A stretch of 51,786 nucleotides of DNA from Varibaculum cambriense (lineage in GTDB: Bacteria > Actinomycetota > Actinomycetes > Actinomycetales > Actinomycetaceae). The notes below the pieces were generated by a model. That model was not told the DNA's origin, searched no databases, and was given only the letters and a program-made list of their open reading frames with translations. A program made the position numbers and the translations under genes. Below, piece by piece: positions 26,564-36,908 of this stretch (positions are counted from its first letter, which is position 1; every line of letters begins with the position of its first letter). The stretch is taken from contig NZ_JAKNHJ010000018.1 in assembly GCF_022133705.1 (NCBI RefSeq), forward strand, positions 1 to 51,786, in the 5' to 3' direction.

Positions 26564-29500
26564 ATGAGCGCAAAGAAGCACCCCATTTTAAAACCAGTAA
26601 TCAGTATCTTGTTTGCCCTAGCCCTAGCAATTGGGGCAGGCCTAGCCACCCCCTTAAGTGCCTATGCGGCAGAGCCTACTTTAGTAGCTACCAAGGACAC
26701 TCCGCAGGCGAAAATAGAGCTATACCTAGTATCCGGAAATCCTAAAGCAGCCGGTCAGACCGTTGAATACCGGGTAAAACTAACCAATAAAACCGCCAAA
26801 GCTGCCTCCTTTGAGTCAGTGAACTACAACTTAGCAAATGCGGAAGGTTGCAAATGGCGCAACGCTGCCCCCAATCAAGTGCAGGAATGTTATATAGCGG
26901 GAATCACGAAAAAACTAACCCACGTAGTTACCCCAGCTGAGGCTACGGCAGGCGGATTTGTCCCCTACGTTACTTTCCGGATGTATTCCGAGGTGGAATA
27001 TGGCGGTGAAAAAACCAGTCTGGGCGGAATCAACGAAAATAAAATTCCGACCACCCTTACCGTTACCAACCCGAAACCAGCCGGTCAAAAATGGACGTTA
27101 GGAGAACGCATCAACTTCAAAGCCACTTTGATTAACCAGACTGGCAAAGCACGGGCACTGTCCGCTAAAAGCTCCAACCTGACAAATTGGGAAGGCTGCA
27201 AATGGTCAAATATGCCAGTTAATCGAGAAATGGATTGCGCTGCCCCCTACCATGTAGTCACGGAAGCTGACGTTAAAGCCGGTAAATTCACCCCCGAAAT
27301 AGTTTGGCAGTATTACCCCAATGCCGGATACACGGGGACAGCCACCTATTATGCGACCACCGAAGCCGAGGCGCTGCCGGTTGCCAACAACTATCTAAAG
27401 TTGGATAAGTTTGAGCTGGCTCCCGAGTCGCAAAAAGCTCACTACCAGGTGGGGGAGGTTCTGAAATTCGCGGTAGAAGTTAACGCTAACGGGGACGATG
27501 CTTTGAAAGTAGCACCCGTAACCGACACCGCCCTAACTAACCTGACTGACAGCGCCGCCAGCAGCTGCGAGCGTGAAAGTCTGGCAGTCGGGACAGTTCA
27601 CCGCTGCCAACTGACCTACACCATCACTGAAGCGGATTTAACCCGCGGTGAAGTGGAAGCCAAGTTAGCTATTGACGGGAAAATGGAGCAGCAACTACTT
27701 AATCGCATTACTGCCACAACTTTTGTATATACCCAAAAGCAATATCCGCAGGCAGACACGGGCACTAAAGCTAAAGACGCAGATCCGGCAGCGGAAGCTA
27801 AAATCAGTGAATTGCACACTGTAGCTACCAGCTCCAAACAGGCGAATATCCGTATTCCGGCAATCGCCGTTGCCCCGAATGGAGATATATTAGCCTCTTA
27901 CGATTACCGCCCGAAGAACGGCAGCATGAATGGAGGAGACTCCCCGAACGAAAACTCGATTATGCAGCGCCGTTCTACCGATAATGGCAAGACTTGGCAG
28001 CCAGAAACAGTGATTGCCCGCGGAATCGTGGGCAGCAACATTGCCGCCCCAAGAGGCTACTCCGACCCGTCGTACGTAGTAGACCATGAAAGTGGCACTA
28101 TTTTTAACTTCCACGTGTACAGCCAGGTATCGGGAGTATTCGCCAAGAATCCTGCCTATACTTTCACTCCAGACGGCAAAATTGATGAAACTAGCGAACA
28201 CGCCATGAACTTAGGGCTGTCTGTATCTACCGACAATGGTCACTCTTGGACGCAACGAGTAATCACTGACCAGGTGTTAGGGGAAAAAGCGCGGGAATTG
28301 CAATCTTGCTTTGCTACCTCCGGTGCCGGTACCCAAAAAATGACTGCTCCTAACAAAGGACGGCTGCTACAGCAGATGGCCTGCGTCCCGAAGAGCGGAG
28401 GGATTGTTGCCTACACGATTTATTCGGATGACCATGGTAAAACCTGGAAATCTGGTAACCCCACCCCAGCAGTAGTTGCGGGTAAAAAGTTTGACGAGAA
28501 CAAAGTTACTGAACTAAGCGATGGGAGCCTAATCCTGATTTCGCGCTCCCAAGCTGGTGGAGGCCGCATTATCTGTAGCTCTATCGATTCCGGGGAAAAC
28601 TGGAAAGATTGCCACGTTAGCAATGATTTAGCTGATGAGAACAATAATGCGCAAGTGATTCGAGCTTTTCCAAATGCGAAACCCGGCACTTTACGTTCAC
28701 AGGTGCTGCTGTTCTCGGGAACCGATAATGGGCGTAAGAATGGATATGTTTGGGTCTCATTTGATGACGGTAAAACCTGGCCGGTAAAGAAACAGTTCAA
28801 GACGGGCGGCACGGGCTATACCACTATGACCGTGCAGAAAGATGGCAATATCGGGTTATTGATGGAGCCCAATGGGGGCGGATGGGCAGACATTGCCCAC
28901 CTCAGTTTTAATCTACGCTGGTTAGAGGACGATTTCCGCACCGAACTTAAAGGGAAAGATGCCGCTGCTAGCGGGCAGGTTGGCAAAGAAATCACCCCGA
29001 TTTCAGTGACCGATTTATTTGAATGCAACGATCCGGTGCTAGCAGACACTTTCGAGGTAACTGGACTGCCCGAGGGCCTGGTATTCGATAAAGAAACCGG
29101 TCAGATTAGTGGCACTCCCGTTGGAAAACTTGAGGCAGACAAAGATTACGAAGTAACCGTTAGCCTCAAGGAAGCCGAAGACGGAACTGGATACCCCAGA
29201 GCCGCGCAGGCTAAGCTCGCCCTCAAGATTTCCCCGCGAGATGCCGCCACTCCAGCGCCTACCCCGCAGATCAGTCCGATAGCCGACCAAACCGTAACCG
29301 CGGACTCGATGATTACTCCTATTAAGTTAGAGGTTAAAGACGGGGCTATTGGAGCAGTTACCGGACTGCCTGAAGGAGTTAGTTTTGACGCCGCTACTGC
29401 AACCATCTTAGGGACTCCCAAGAAAGCGGGCTCCTATGAAGTCACGGTTACGGCTTTGAACGTGGATGGGGAGGAGAAAGCTACTGCTACCTTCACCATC

Positions 29501-29824
29501 ACCGTTGAGGAAGCAACGCCGACCCCCGGAGGCGATCCGGAACCGGGCACGAATCCAGATCCCGGTACAGATCCAGGAACTACCCCTGATCCAGGTACTT
29601 CCCCCGGCGATTCCACCCAACAGCCAGGTCAAAGCGGTAAAGACCATAAGAACCTGAAGCCCCAAGCGAGGGGCAAAGCGGCAAACCAGAAAGCTCAAAC
29701 CGCTACCCCGCAGCGAAAGGGACTAGCGAGAACCGGCGCAAATATGGGAGCCGAGTTGTTGGCGGTCTCGCTATTAATGTGCGGACTGGGTATCGCCACG
29801 CTTCAGCGCAGGAGGCGTGGATAG
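26564..29824 (+). CDS. nanH: Cell-wall-anchored sialidase (GH33)
   Basis: Secreted exo-sialidase of 1086 residues, predicted to remove terminal sialic acid from host glycoconjugates. Signal peptide about 1-36 (ending LSAYAAEP). Three N-terminal Ig-like repeats (about 37-395), each with a Cys pair. The GH33 six-blade propeller starts near ANIRIPAIAVAPNGDIL, which holds the RIP arginine, followed by five Asp boxes: STDNGKTW, STDNGHSW, SDDHGKTW, SIDSGENW and SFDDGKTW (about residues 470, 555, 621, 673 and 732). Then two He_PIG/Ig-like domains, a Pro/Gly/Thr-rich stalk, LARTG (about 1053-1057), a hydrophobic helix and QRRRRG. LAxTG is a known variant sorting signal in actinobacteria. Linkage specificity cannot be read. 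A strong terminator follows. Confidence 0.93.
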   Translation: MSAKKHPILKPVISILFALALAIGAGLATPLSAYAAEPTLVATKDTPQAKIELYLVSGNPKAAGQTVEYRVKLTNKTAKAASFESVNYNLANAEGCKWRNAAPNQVQECYIAGITKKLTHVVTPAEATAGGFVPYVTFRMYSEVEYGGEKTSLGGINENKIPTTLTVTNPKPAGQKWTLGERINFKATLINQTGKARALSAKSSNLTNWEGCKWSNMPVNREMDCAAPYHVVTEADVKAGKFTPEIVWQYYPNAGYTGTATYYATTEAEALPVANNYLKLDKFELAPESQKAHYQVGEVLKFAVEVNANGDDALKVAPVTDTALTNLTDSAASSCERESLAVGTVHRCQLTYTITEADLTRGEVEAKLAIDGKMEQQLLNRITATTFVYTQKQYPQADTGTKAKDADPAAEAKISELHTVATSSKQANIRIPAIAVAPNGDILASYDYRPKNGSMNGGDSPNENSIMQRRSTDNGKTWQPETVIARGIVGSNIAAPRGYSDPSYVVDHESGTIFNFHVYSQVSGVFAKNPAYTFTPDGKIDETSEHAMNLGLSVSTDNGHSWTQRVITDQVLGEKARELQSCFATSGAGTQKMTAPNKGRLLQQMACVPKSGGIVAYTIYSDDHGKTWKSGNPTPAVVAGKKFDENKVTELSDGSLILISRSQAGGGRIICSSIDSGENWKDCHVSNDLADENNNAQVIRAFPNAKPGTLRSQVLLFSGTDNGRKNGYVWVSFDDGKTWPVKKQFKTGGTGYTTMTVQKDGNIGLLMEPNGGGWADIAHLSFNLRWLEDDFRTELKGKDAAASGQVGKEITPISVTDLFECNDPVLADTFEVTGLPEGLVFDKETGQISGTPVGKLEADKDYEVTVSLKEAEDGTGYPRAAQAKLALKISPRDAATPAPTPQISPIADQTVTADSMITPIKLEVKDGAIGAVTGLPEGVSFDAATATILGTPKKAGSYEVTVTALNVDGEEKATATFTITVEEATPTPGGDPEPGTNPDPGTDPGTTPDPGTSPGDSTQQPGQSGKDHKNLKPQARGKAANQKAQTATPQRKGLARTGANMGAELLAVSLLMCGLGIATLQRRRRG

Positions 29825-30132: not shown

Positions 30133-31161
30133 TTGCCCTGCGAACCTAAATCTAGCGATAATGGGAAGGTGATTAATACTGCCCGAAAATATCGTTTGCG
30201 CCGTCTAGCAGCGCTTTTGATATTGGTTGTTCTGGTGGCAGTAATCGCCCTGGTGGTGAACCTGATTTATGGGTTTATCCGGCAAGAAGAATCCGCTGAT
30301 TCCATTCCCGAACCCACTATGCCTCCGGTTAGTGCTCAGGGTTTTAATGCTACCGATTTAATCAGCGAAACAGAGTTTACGCGCTGGGATTCCCTGTCCG
30401 CCTCCCAGATTCAAGATTTTATTACGGACTGGGGATACGGATGCCGCACAGGTAAAGCTAAGGCCATGCCAGAAAGCACCGGAATGACGCAGGCGAATGA
30501 TGACAGCAAAAAGCAAGAGGTGGAAGTTCCCTGTTTGAAAGATTTTCGCGCTAGCCTGCCTCCTCATGATCCTGACCGGTTTTGCCCGCAAGCGGTACCG
30601 GGTGGAGATAATCTTAACGCCGGTGAGGTTATCGCCCAGGTTTCTCGCAGCTGCCAGATTAACCCGAAAGCAATTCTGGTGACCCTACAAAAAGAACAGG
30701 GGCTGATCACCGTTTCTTCTTCCCGGCTTACCCCACGGAGATACGAAATAGCGATGGGCTATGGATGCCCCGATCATACCCAATGTGACCCCCAGTTCTA
30801 CGGGTTTGGCACACAGGTGTACTACGCGGCGCGCCAGTGGCGACGTTACCAGGTTGATTCCGGTTTATACGATGTGCAAGCTGGCAAACCGGTTACGTTA
30901 GGTTACGGCCCGGATTCACGCTGCGGCAGTAAAGAAATAGTTCCGAAAAATTGGCCGACCGCCGCCCTCTACAACTACACCCCCTACTTGGCTTCAGCCG
31001 ATGCCCTCGCCGGACTCAGCGACGATTGCGCCCAGCCGGGGAATCTGAATTTCTATCAATTTTATAAAGCCTGGTTTGGTGATCCCCGCCAGGGCGGGGG
31101 AGAAGTGCTGACCCGCAAAGCTTTGGCTGGGCGGCAAGATCAGCAAAAAGCAAAGCAGTAA
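30133..31161 (+). CDS. Membrane-anchored lysozyme-like (hemagglutinin-annotated) protein
   Basis: A 342-residue protein with a basic N-terminus, one transmembrane helix (about 26-51) and an extracytoplasmic domain. ILVTLQKEQGLITVSSSRLT (about 178-197) contains a Glu placed as in lysozyme/transglycosylase folds, and IAMGYGCPDHTQCDPQFYGF is a conserved Cys-containing block. Actinobacterial relatives are often labelled hemagglutinin without good evidence. A role in cell wall cleavage is inference. The start is uncertain: TTG 30133 has only a distant AAAGGG, and GTG 30169 has GGGAAG directly next to it. The gene has a hairpin-rich leader and is followed by a structured RNA candidate. It may be a pseudo-enzyme. 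Confidence 0.6.
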   Translation: MPCEPKSSDNGKVINTARKYRLRRLAALLILVVLVAVIALVVNLIYGFIRQEESADSIPEPTMPPVSAQGFNATDLISETEFTRWDSLSASQIQDFITDWGYGCRTGKAKAMPESTGMTQANDDSKKQEVEVPCLKDFRASLPPHDPDRFCPQAVPGGDNLNAGEVIAQVSRSCQINPKAILVTLQKEQGLITVSSSRLTPRRYEIAMGYGCPDHTQCDPQFYGFGTQVYYAARQWRRYQVDSGLYDVQAGKPVTLGYGPDSRCGSKEIVPKNWPTAALYNYTPYLASADALAGLSDDCAQPGNLNFYQFYKAWFGDPRQGGGEVLTRKALAGRQDQQKAKQ

Positions 31162-31231
31162 TAATAAAAAATAGGATTTTGATTGACAATAATCCTTCAT
31201 TGTTTACGCAGGAAGATGCTAAAATTACGGG

Positions 31232-31380
31232 GAGCGTTTGCAAGTTGACGCTCTGGCGAAGGATGTTATGGGAGGTATCCTCCGCCTAGGGGAGAATGCC
31301 AGGTATTTTCCCCTGACTCGGATCCCTACCGAGGACTGTTAGGGACTTGGGGGCTCAGGTAGGAAGCCTGAGCCCCCAAG
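31232..31380 (+). ncRNA. Candidate structured small RNA, family unknown
   Basis: Five consecutive stem-loops in 149 nt: GAGCGT/ACGCTC (31232-31253); GGCGAAGGAT/ATCCTCCGCC (31255-31286, one mismatch); AGGGGAGAAT/ATTTTCCCCT (31288-31314); CTCGG/CCGAG (31317-31333); and a 14-bp terminator stem (31346-31380). The loop TCCCTA of hairpin 4 (31323-31328) is complementary to TAGGGA (31340-31345), which would make an H-type pseudoknot next to the terminator. TAAAAT at 31220 could be a -10 element. I tested it mentally against tmRNA, RNase P, SRP, 6S/6C and common riboswitches and see no match. Orientation is set by the terminator position and the TAAAAT; the minus strand is possible. Confidence 0.6.
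31346..31380 (+). terminator. Terminator of the small RNA candidate
   Basis: CTTGGGGGCTCAGG (31346-31359) and CCTGAGCCCCCAAG (31367-31380) form a perfect 14-bp stem with a 7-nt loop, followed by CAATTCCTTT. It could also serve the lysozyme-like gene 185 bp upstream. Confidence 0.75.
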
Positions 31381-31454
31381 CAATTCCTTTCCTTACCCCT
31401 GAATGCCTGTTGTCGGTGTGCTTACCTGTTCCCAGCTAACGCTGCCTCCCGCGC

Positions 31455-31557
31455 GTGCGGGCGGATTTTACCTCGCGCCCCGAAATCCGGAAAATGCTCT
31501 GGCATTTTCACGGATTTAGTGCCCGAAGCCTACCCCTCGGCATAAATCCGCCCACAC
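31455..31557. repeat. Nested inverted repeat, block 1
   Basis: Outer arms 31455-31468 and 31544-31557 (14 bp, one mismatch; core GGGCGGATTT/AAATCCGCCC) enclose inner arms AAATCCGGAAAATGC (31483-31497) and GCATTTTCACGGATTT (31502-31517) with a small bulge. The AAATCCG element recurs in both the outer and inner arms. Confidence 0.7.
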
Positions 31558-31614
31558 ACGCTCACCCTAGCCCCGCGCTTGGAGGTATCGCGCGCAAAGG
31601 TCGCGATTTCGAGA

Positions 31615-31718
31615 TGCGGGGAAAAGTTTTATCCGAGTGGGTGCGGTGGGCATAAGAATTCGGAAAACGCCGCTACGTTTTCCGAATTCTTGGGCGGGAG
31701 GAAAAACTTTTCCCCGCA
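31615..31718. repeat. Nested inverted repeat, block 2
   Basis: Outer arms TGCGGGGAAAAGTTTT (31615-31630) and AAAACTTTTCCCCGCA (31703-31718) are perfect over 16 bp. They enclose a second perfect 16-bp repeat, AAGAATTCGGAAAACG (31654-31669) and CGTTTTCCGAATTCTT (31676-31691). The layout copies block 1. Confidence 0.8.
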
Positions 31719-31772
31719 TATACCGTGTGCAGCAGAAACAATCGGAACCTCGGGATACTCACTTAGATGCAA

Positions 31773-32417
31773 TTAGTCAGCGGGGTCGGGGTTTTTTAGG
31801 GCGCTCAGAGGAGAATCTAAAACCAGTGCTTGCAGGTAAAGAACAAACCCGATGCCGAAAAGAGGCATTATGATCAGGGCGCTCCAGAAAAGGCTGGGAC
31901 GCAAGTAAAGCCCAGCTAGCGGTAAGATCGCGAAAAGTAGGGCGCTCAAGGTGCGCGGCAGGCGTCCGATGGCCAGCAACGCAGCGTTGCGCAAAGTTTG
32001 CTTAAACGAGGCCGAGAATTGGGAACTATAGGCAAAGAACCAGATTCCAATGGCGGTTATTACTGCCATGCCGAACAGTACCCCGGCGCGCATTACTAGA
32101 TGCCAGGTAGGAGAAGCTGGCAGATATTTAACTAGCTGAAGTTGGTAGGCTCCCACTAGTAGCAGAGCGACTAGCAATACTCCTCCGCCGAAGGCTGAAC
32201 GAAAATCGCTGCGAAAGTGACGCCAGAAAGTAAAACCGGGTCGCGCGCCCTCTTCCCGTACTATCTGTAATAAGACGTAGTAGCCTGCGCTAAGAGCAGG
32301 CCCGATCGTGATCACCGGCAGCGATGCTATACAGATAAAAAGGCTGATCATTGCGACATCAGCAATCAAGGTTAGCAGCGCGGCCAAGAAGCCGTAGTGA
32401 GAGAAAAATCGGTTCAT
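31773..32417 (-). CDS. DUF624 (YesL-like) membrane protein
   Basis: Polytopic membrane protein of 214 residues with about five helices. The N-terminal pattern SLPVITIGPALSAGYYVLLQ and the following VREEGARPGFTFWRHFRSDF are typical of the DUF624/YesL family. Such proteins usually sit with carbohydrate ABC importers whose role they may assist in an unknown way. ATG with CTGAGGAATT upstream. It lies 35 bp after lacI and is probably co-transcribed with it. Confidence 0.8.
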   Translation of the reverse strand: MNRFFSHYGFLAALLTLIADVAMISLFICIASLPVITIGPALSAGYYVLLQIVREEGARPGFTFWRHFRSDFRSAFGGGVLLVALLLVGAYQLQLVKYLPASPTWHLVMRAGVLFGMAVITAIGIWFFAYSSQFSASFKQTLRNAALLAIGRLPRTLSALLFAILPLAGLYLRPSLFWSALIIMPLFGIGFVLYLQALVLDSPLSALKNPDPAD

Positions 32418-35579: not shown

Positions 35580-36908
35580 TTATCTCTTTTCGGCGGCCCA
35601 GCCGTCTTGGAAATTCTTAACTACCTTGTCCCAGTCCAGGTTGCCAATGGCGTACTGTCCTAGATCCTGGCCAAAGTCATCTTTAAACTTTTGGGACGGG
35701 TAAGTGGTGAATATCCACGGCACCGTAGTCAGCTTGTCGCTGCTAAGGGAAGCGGCAACTTCCTTGGCCAACGGGTCATTAGGAATCTCGTCAGCAGAGA
35801 AAGCCTTGAACGGGGCAATAAAGCCAAGGTCTTCCACCACAGCCTTCTTGCCCTGGGGATCGGAGAAGAGCCAGTTGATGAAATCAATGGTGGCCTTCTG
35901 ATCCGCTTCCGAGGCCTTGGCATTAACTGCCATGAAAGCTTCGGTACCTACTGCCAGACCCTGCTTTTCTTCACCCTTGTGACCGGTGTAGATAGGCAGC
36001 ATCTTAATCTTGTCTTCCTTTACTACGTTGCCTTTCTCTTCGGCGACCTGGCTCCAAGCCCAGTTGCCGTTTTGCACCATAGCTGCTTTACCCTGTGCAA
36101 ACTCAGCCATAGAGTCGGCTACGTTCTTGTTAGGAGTTAGCTTGCGGTCAACAGTCGAGTTATCCAAGTAGAGATCAAAAATATTCTTGAATTCTTTATT
36201 GAACTTGAATTTCGCCTTGTCGGTATCGGTAACCTTATCCGCCTGATACTCGTAGTACATGGGGATATTCGATAGGTGGGTCTGCCAACGCCAATCTTCA
36301 CCTTTAGCCAGCGAAGTGGAGGCAAACACGCCCTCAATTCCGAGGTCGGCTTTGTGAGCTTGCATATCCTCAACAACTTCTTTCAGTTTGGCGAAGTTAT
36401 TGATTTCATCTACCTTAGTGGCTTTGGCGCCCGGCATTGCGAAATACTTGTCCAGAATCTCTTGGTTGTAGACAATGCCGTAACCTTCTACTGCCAATGG
36501 CACCCCGTAAATCTTGCCGTCCTCGCCCTTCAGTGCCAAGTTGGGATCATTGAGATCCTTGGCAAACTTAGTGTCGGTGAGATCCGCAGTGTATTTTTGC
36601 CAGCTCTTCAAGCCGACCGGACCGTTCACGTTGAACAGGGTAGGAGCATCAGATTTAGCGATTTCAGACTTTAGCTGCTGTTCGTAGTTTCCGGAACCTA
36701 CGGTTTGGACTTTGACCTCTACTCCCTTGTCTTTGGTGTAGGTCTCAGCAATTTTCTTAAAGGCTTTTTCCTGCTCCGGTTTCCAGTTCAACATATAAAC
36801 TTTGCCTTTACCGTCGCCCGCATCAGAGCCTGAAGAGCAGGCTGCCAAGCCGGTCAACGCAAAAGCGCTGGCAACAAAGGTTGCCAAAATACGAGTTTTC
36901 CTTGACAT
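35580..36908 (-). CDS. Carbohydrate ABC transporter substrate-binding lipoprotein
   Basis: Extracytoplasmic solute-binding lipoprotein of 442 residues of the CUT1 family. Signal peptide with lipobox LAAC (Cys24), then a mature domain starting near KVYMLNWKPEQEKAFKKIAE. FAQGKAAMVQNGNWAWSQV is the conserved family block. ATG start after AAGGGGGGACGTTA. It is first in an operon with two permeases, controlled by a LacI-type operator. The substrate cannot be read from sequence. Given the local glycan-degrading enzymes, lacto-N-biose/galacto-N-biose or another released sugar is a reasonable guess only. Confidence 0.9.
   Translation of the reverse strand: MSRKTRILATFVASAFALTGLAACSSGSDAGDGKGKVYMLNWKPEQEKAFKKIAETYTKDKGVEVKVQTVGSGNYEQQLKSEIAKSDAPTLFNVNGPVGLKSWQKYTADLTDTKFAKDLNDPNLALKGEDGKIYGVPLAVEGYGIVYNQEILDKYFAMPGAKATKVDEINNFAKLKEVVEDMQAHKADLGIEGVFASTSLAKGEDWRWQTHLSNIPMYYEYQADKVTDTDKAKFKFNKEFKNIFDLYLDNSTVDRKLTPNKNVADSMAEFAQGKAAMVQNGNWAWSQVAEEKGNVVKEDKIKMLPIYTGHKGEEKQGLAVGTEAFMAVNAKASEADQKATIDFINWLFSDPQGKKAVVEDLGFIAPFKAFSADEIPNDPLAKEVAASLSSDKLTTVPWIFTTYPSQKFKDDFGQDLGQYAIGNLDWDKVVKNFQDGWAAEKR

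Follow-up and report, generated by a model that had tools for sequence, protein, structure and literature searches.

A conserved, uncatalogued structured element between two convergent genes in Varibaculum

The window, i.e. the whole stretch of 51,786 nucleotides of Varibaculum cambriense DNA (contig NZ_JAKNHJ010000018.1) that was analysed, holds a conserved and uncatalogued structured element of an ordinary kind. It sits between two convergent genes, an upstream gene on the plus strand (30133-31161) and a MusI-family gene, musI, on the minus strand (31773-32417). Some 70 nt separate the element from the stop codon of the upstream gene, which has the same direction. The protein encoded by 30133-31161 matches no Pfam, NCBIfam or PHROGs family. 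Relatives of it occur in 97 out of 200 family genomes, six Varibaculum genomes included; the matches fall mostly between residues about 108 and 295 of the part that was searched, and their frame lengths are very different. Behind musI, and all on the minus strand, there are a LacI-type regulator, two permeases (one recognised by Pfam, the second by reading its translation) and a weakly MalE-like binding protein. Further upstream of the element, 26564-29824 encodes a sialidase-like protein with BNR repeats, the C-terminus of which reads like a sorting signal; its place is taken in another Varibaculum genome (G004) by frames that read like phosphate-transporter genes.

The features of the element were all assigned to the plus strand. 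An extended -10 box (TGCTAAAAT, 31217..31225) reads TGCTANAAT in all five copies that we found in the genus. It has no clear -35, and a sigma-70 scan that requires a -35 did not report it. The RNA would start near 31232, at the foot of hairpin 1 (31232..31253), which has an 8-nt loop (TGCAAGTT) that is invariant in the five copies (8/8 columns). Hairpin 2 (31255..31286) carries the invariant TGGGAGGT in its loop, where 8 out of 11 columns are invariant, and hairpin 3 (31288..31314) has 12 pairs, G-U included, and the triloop CAG. Hairpin 4 (31317..31333) would form stem S1 of a probable H-type pseudoknot. The loop strand of its second stem, S2, is TCCCTA (31323..31328, invariant in 5/5 copies) and the partner strand is TAGGGA (31340..31345), which is TAGGGG in one species with the wobble kept. 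The last hairpin (31346..31380) has 15 bp and is followed by a pyrimidine-rich tail (31381..31395), the likely 3' end region. The first-pass annotation called this hairpin a terminator; it is strong, but the sequence behind it, CAATTCCTTT, lacks a full T-run, and we therefore refer to it as terminator-like.

There is no gene-sized frame on the plus strand from the element to position 36000, where frames of 65-149 aa are found. The three nearest of these (31455-31873, 65-78 aa) lie mostly within a segment that is absent from V. cambriense DSM 15806, and the other plus-strand frames overlap minus-strand genes. In that strain most of the segment behind the element is missing and musI ends near the hairpin. 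In other words, the element leads into no likely gene.

The fold energy of 31200-31400 on the plus strand is -92.9 kcal/mol, as compared with -68.5 +/- 4.7 kcal/mol for shuffled sequences (z -5.2), and 0 out of 200 shuffles folded as well. The description of a structured RNA with successive hairpins, i.e. four hairpins and the 15-bp terminator-like one, is thus well founded. The minus strand of the region also folds well (z -4.5), which is expected from a set of inverted repeats. Standard pairs occupy 266 out of 270 pair cells when the copies are read as plus and 233 out of 270 when they are read as minus, the difference being 33 cells that are G-U on the plus strand. This makes the plus strand the better sense strand, in a comparison that leans to the plus strand because the structure had been drawn on it.

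The structure including the pseudoknot has 54 pairs in 6 helices, and 98.5% of the 270 cells are standard. When the partners were slid, 37-52% of the cells were paired, a control that leans towards a structure taken from these same sequences. Covariation in the alignment of the relatives is modest. Three pairs are changed on both sides (the mean of the shuffles is 1.0, and three were reached in 9 out of 500), two of them in hairpin 2, which is imperfectly aligned for two species. The clearest double changes are a G-C to T-A exchange in the terminator-like hairpin of one species, and T-A versus C-G in hairpin 2. Since 43 of the 54 pairs never vary among the five sequences, the power to detect covariation is low.

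The proposed pseudoknot has an S1 of 5 bp, an L1 of 1 nt, an S2 of 6 bp, no L2 and an L3 of 6 nt, and such stem and loop sizes are those of a standard H-type layout. S2 pairs in all five copies, with one wobble, no two-sided changes and energies of -7.6 to -9.9 kcal/mol. The copy of V. cambriense DSM 15806 has one S1 pair fewer and a seventh pair in S2, a shift that we find suggestive. Of the S2 columns 11 out of 12 are invariant, as opposed to 1 out of 6 in the linker (one-sided p 0.004, the linker having been chosen after seeing the data), and against all unpaired columns the contrast has p 0.08. The complementarity of loop 4 and the strand before the terminator, which had been pointed out in the first-pass annotation, is kept in every copy and fits the H-type layout, although a 6-nt complement as good as this one arose in 3337 out of 200000 shuffles of the loop and the downstream strand (about 1.7%). 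When the five copies are folded without pseudoknots, two of them (the window's copy and that of V. cambriense DSM 15806) form S2 instead of hairpin 4, two form hairpin 4, and a different middle fold wins in the remaining one (G005); within the longer fold of 31200-31400 hairpin 4 forms in the window's copy as well. Judged from these comparisons, a pseudoknot of loop 4 with TAGGGA is probable.

The variability of the element was compared with that of its neighbours in all ten pairwise combinations of the five carriers. The element itself (alignment columns 5-154) is 84.4-94.6% identical. For the same pairs, identity at four-fold sites is 46.9-75.4% for musI and 37.0-67.6% for the upstream gene, and the whole-gene nucleotide identities are 74.0-89.7% and 67.8-85.4%, respectively. 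The element changes less than its coding neighbours in 10 out of 10 pairs. A 30-column block around the -10 box is 70.0-93.3% identical versus 32.0-66.7% for the spacer before it, i.e. the sequence around them drifts but the element and its promoter box are retained. Such slow change relative to the coding neighbours makes it very likely that the element is functional.

One copy each was found in five out of six Varibaculum genomes, the window's own included, always between the same pair of genes; the matches span 156-175 bases of the 175-base query. The carriers include V. cambriense DSM 15806 and V. vaginae Marseille-P5644. In the sixth genome (G004) both neighbour genes are present, 99 nt apart, with no element between them, and a search at E up to 10 gave only 14- and 15-nt pieces elsewhere in that genome. 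Judged by the sequence of the neighbour genes, no other genome of the six is as distant as G004, so that the element may have been gained after G004 branched off, or lost in G004. The gene pair without the element constitutes a natural comparison.

The searches outside the genus were less rewarding. Blast against 151 family genomes gave matches at E up to 1 in 50 genomes, five of which are the Varibaculum copies; the remaining 45 genomes match parts of the query (best E 0.004). The full model R1 matched 15 out of 200 family genomes, again with five Varibaculum among them. By eye, the remaining ten have only the GC-rich terminator hairpin in common with the element and were rejected as relatives; the match in G100 was judged on the hairpin and the 60 nt before it. 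The core model R2, from which the terminator is left out, gave the five Varibaculum copies and three matches at E 0.11-0.88 in 213 family genomes (the six Varibaculum included), and the own copy and four matches at E 0.11-0.63 in 394 class genomes. The seven R2 matches outside Varibaculum are taken as chance. Both models were built from five close sequences (effective number 0.8) and score the best candidates of a strictly filtered first pass, a procedure that may overlook diverged copies. The hairpin-4/TAGGG region, sought as an exact pattern that would miss changed copies, was present in two records of an 84,980-genome collection, both Varibaculum, and in none of the viral contigs; the search for the element in plasmids and phages gave no match. 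The genomes searched thus hold nothing convincing outside the genus, to which the element appears restricted.

The element was also compared with catalogued RNAs. No Rfam 15 family reached its gathering score on the element, and the sole match in the window is a tRNA elsewhere, in agreement with the first-pass annotation, which had recognised no common family. At E up to 10 the element has nine matches, all of them below threshold (best E 0.23), among them five animal microRNA models and two bacterial sRNA models (Scr5676 at E 6.8 and BjrC68 at E 8.5). The preQ1-I riboswitch is built on an H-type pseudoknot, and the element shares this layout with riboswitches of the preQ1-I type. It differs from them in having no Rfam match and no co-directional gene-sized frame behind it; what comes next are the convergent musI and plus-strand frames of 65-78 aa. 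The element has a conserved structure, lies between genes and shows no coding signature, as one expects of a free-standing sRNA.

In the 6C RNA there are two hairpins with C-rich loops of six or more C. The element is like the 6C/B11 sRNA (RF01066) in being a stand-alone actinobacterial hairpin RNA with a C-containing loop, but it has only one such loop, loop 4, with three C that are probably tied up in the pseudoknot. RF01066 has no match on the element, strict or at E up to 10, and none in the six Varibaculum genomes, the latter being a weak test as 1 out of 14 control genomes was matched and none above the cut-off. B11 has two C-rich loops, which were mutated in order to test how a message that contains a six-G tract is repressed (PMC10470900). 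Loop 4 also carries UCCC, which is the contact motif of LhrC, RsaE and other sRNAs of the Firmicutes (PMC4132741). The Firmicutes are however another phylum, and the UCCC of the element has an internal partner in 5/5 copies and is therefore probably not free. The element resembles 6C/B11 and the UCCC-motif sRNAs in general style.

The interpretation that we favour, tentatively and at a little under an even chance, is that the element is a small regulatory RNA of some 150-160 nt that stands alone, is restricted to the genus, has its own promoter and acts in trans by base-pairing. Transcription would run rightward from the extended -10 promoter of the element, in the space behind the gene at 30133-31161, and would end at the strong terminator-like hairpin. 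The 3' half, i.e. the H-type pseudoknot stacked on the terminator hairpin, would most likely serve stability. Messenger RNAs would most likely be contacted by loops 1 and 2, the conserved free surfaces of the RNA. In favour of this interpretation are the conservation of sequence, fold, -10 box and position, and the lack of a convincing copy in the other genomes searched. Against it are the thin covariation, the unclear -35, the missing T-run, exact loop-1 complements no more frequent than those of a control pattern, a short frame common to all five copies (though with no coding signature), and the one member of the genus in which the element is absent.

Several other readings were weighed against this one. 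The distance of about 70 nt to the stop codon, the common direction and the fact that the gene adjoins the element in all five carriers would suit a structured 3' UTR of the upstream gene that protects its mRNA or is released by processing. We consider this unlikely, as the -10 block is conserved and the spacer between the gene and the block is not, and as the sixth species has the gene without the element. The conservation of hairpins 1-4 and of the -10 block, together with the slow change relative to the coding neighbours in all ten pairs, also makes it very unlikely that the element is a passive strong bidirectional terminator with incidental hairpins, even though a hairpin does lie between convergent genes and similar GC-rich hairpins occur in other family genomes. 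Loop 2 deserves separate mention since it reads GGGAGGU/GGGAGGUG, i.e. it is Shine-Dalgarno-like, and its TGGGAGGT is complementary to the 16S anti-Shine-Dalgarno. A ribosome-binding RNA, with a hairpin-2 loop that imitates a Shine-Dalgarno sequence and sits on the anti-Shine-Dalgarno end of 16S rRNA, would agree with the pairing of loop 2 and the 16S tail (-11.6 to -13.5 kcal/mol in 5/5 copies, no control sequences having been scored), and with the absence of ATG, GTG or TTG 3-11 nt behind GGGAGG in 5/5 copies. A loop this rich in purines could just as well pair with C-rich messages or with loop 4 (-6.4), and we find this reading improbable.

The first-pass annotation further suggested that the pairing of loop 4 switches the terminator. 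TAGGGA abuts the 15-bp terminator stem but lies outside it, so that the pseudoknot and the terminator can form together and the loop-4 pairing would not undo the terminator; whether or not the pseudoknot forms, the stem stays whole. With no gene-sized plus-strand frame to 36000 and a convergent gene next, a terminator switch would be without an obvious object, and this suggestion is not supported. A cis-acting switch, be it a riboswitch or an attenuator, whose terminator is under the control of the pseudoknot is highly unlikely for the same reasons and in view of V. cambriense DSM 15806, where most of the downstream segment is absent and musI ends nearby. On its side are the two possible partners of TAGGGA, since the tail after the terminator can also pair with it (-4.5 to -7.7 kcal/mol in 5/5 copies, at best about as strong as the pairing with loop 4), the fact that several riboswitches use H-type pseudoknots, and a 24-codon frame (31268-31342) ending on TAG just before the terminator, where the stop of a leader peptide would be. 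This frame bears on the claim that the element has no ORF. Several short frames do start within the element, and the 24-codon one is open, ungapped and of equal length in 5/5 copies; what holds of the claim is that there is no coding signature. A small messenger or dual-function RNA from which this frame is translated would fit the length changes falling before its start, and AGGA/GGGA about 4-5 nt upstream. The frame lies within hairpins, starts with ATG in two species and with TTG in three, and its stop is the TAG of TAGGGA. Its variable columns are spread evenly over the codon positions (6, 5, 5), and over the ten pairs 16 out of 57 differing codons are synonymous (28%) versus 27.6% expected of random changes. 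The conservation is therefore not of the coding kind, and translation of the frame appears very unlikely. A frame in hairpin 3, ATG CCA GGT ATT TTC CCC, is six codons long in three species but extends to 38 and 81 codons in the other two, and was likewise rejected as coding.

Returning to the small regulatory RNA, candidate targets were sought with loop 1. Its exact 11-nt complement has nine sites in the six genomes, five in the element itself and four outside, and a reversed control pattern has six sites in the same six genomes. The four outside loci show no mutual similarity by blastn or tblastx at 1e-5, i.e. they reveal no shared target. The titles that came up when open-licence papers were searched for small or noncoding RNAs of Varibaculum concern communities, cancer or semen, and none of them names such an RNA. 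A bolder version, to which we attach very little weight, is a new actinobacterial RNA class with a UCCC seed locked in a terminator-abutting pseudoknot and a GGGAGGUG loop facing the ribosome, i.e. a gated sRNA. A signal, a target or a translating ribosome that pulls TAGGGA away would then free the loop-4 seed. Should the pseudoknot indeed hold the UCCC loop, one could test whether a seed is gated within an sRNA.

Two other repetitive features lie downstream. A long inverted repeat (31440-31560) is situated between the RNA element and a nested near-perfect palindrome (31612-31722; DNA fold z -9.2). By eye, three relatives have another palindromic segment in the place of 31440-31560, and V. cambriense DSM 15806 has neither insert. 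The palindrome at 31612-31722 is part of a dispersed repeat, which we take to be a REP/BIME- or MITE-like family, with 38 to 59 matches in each of the six Varibaculum genomes and 58 in the window's genome.
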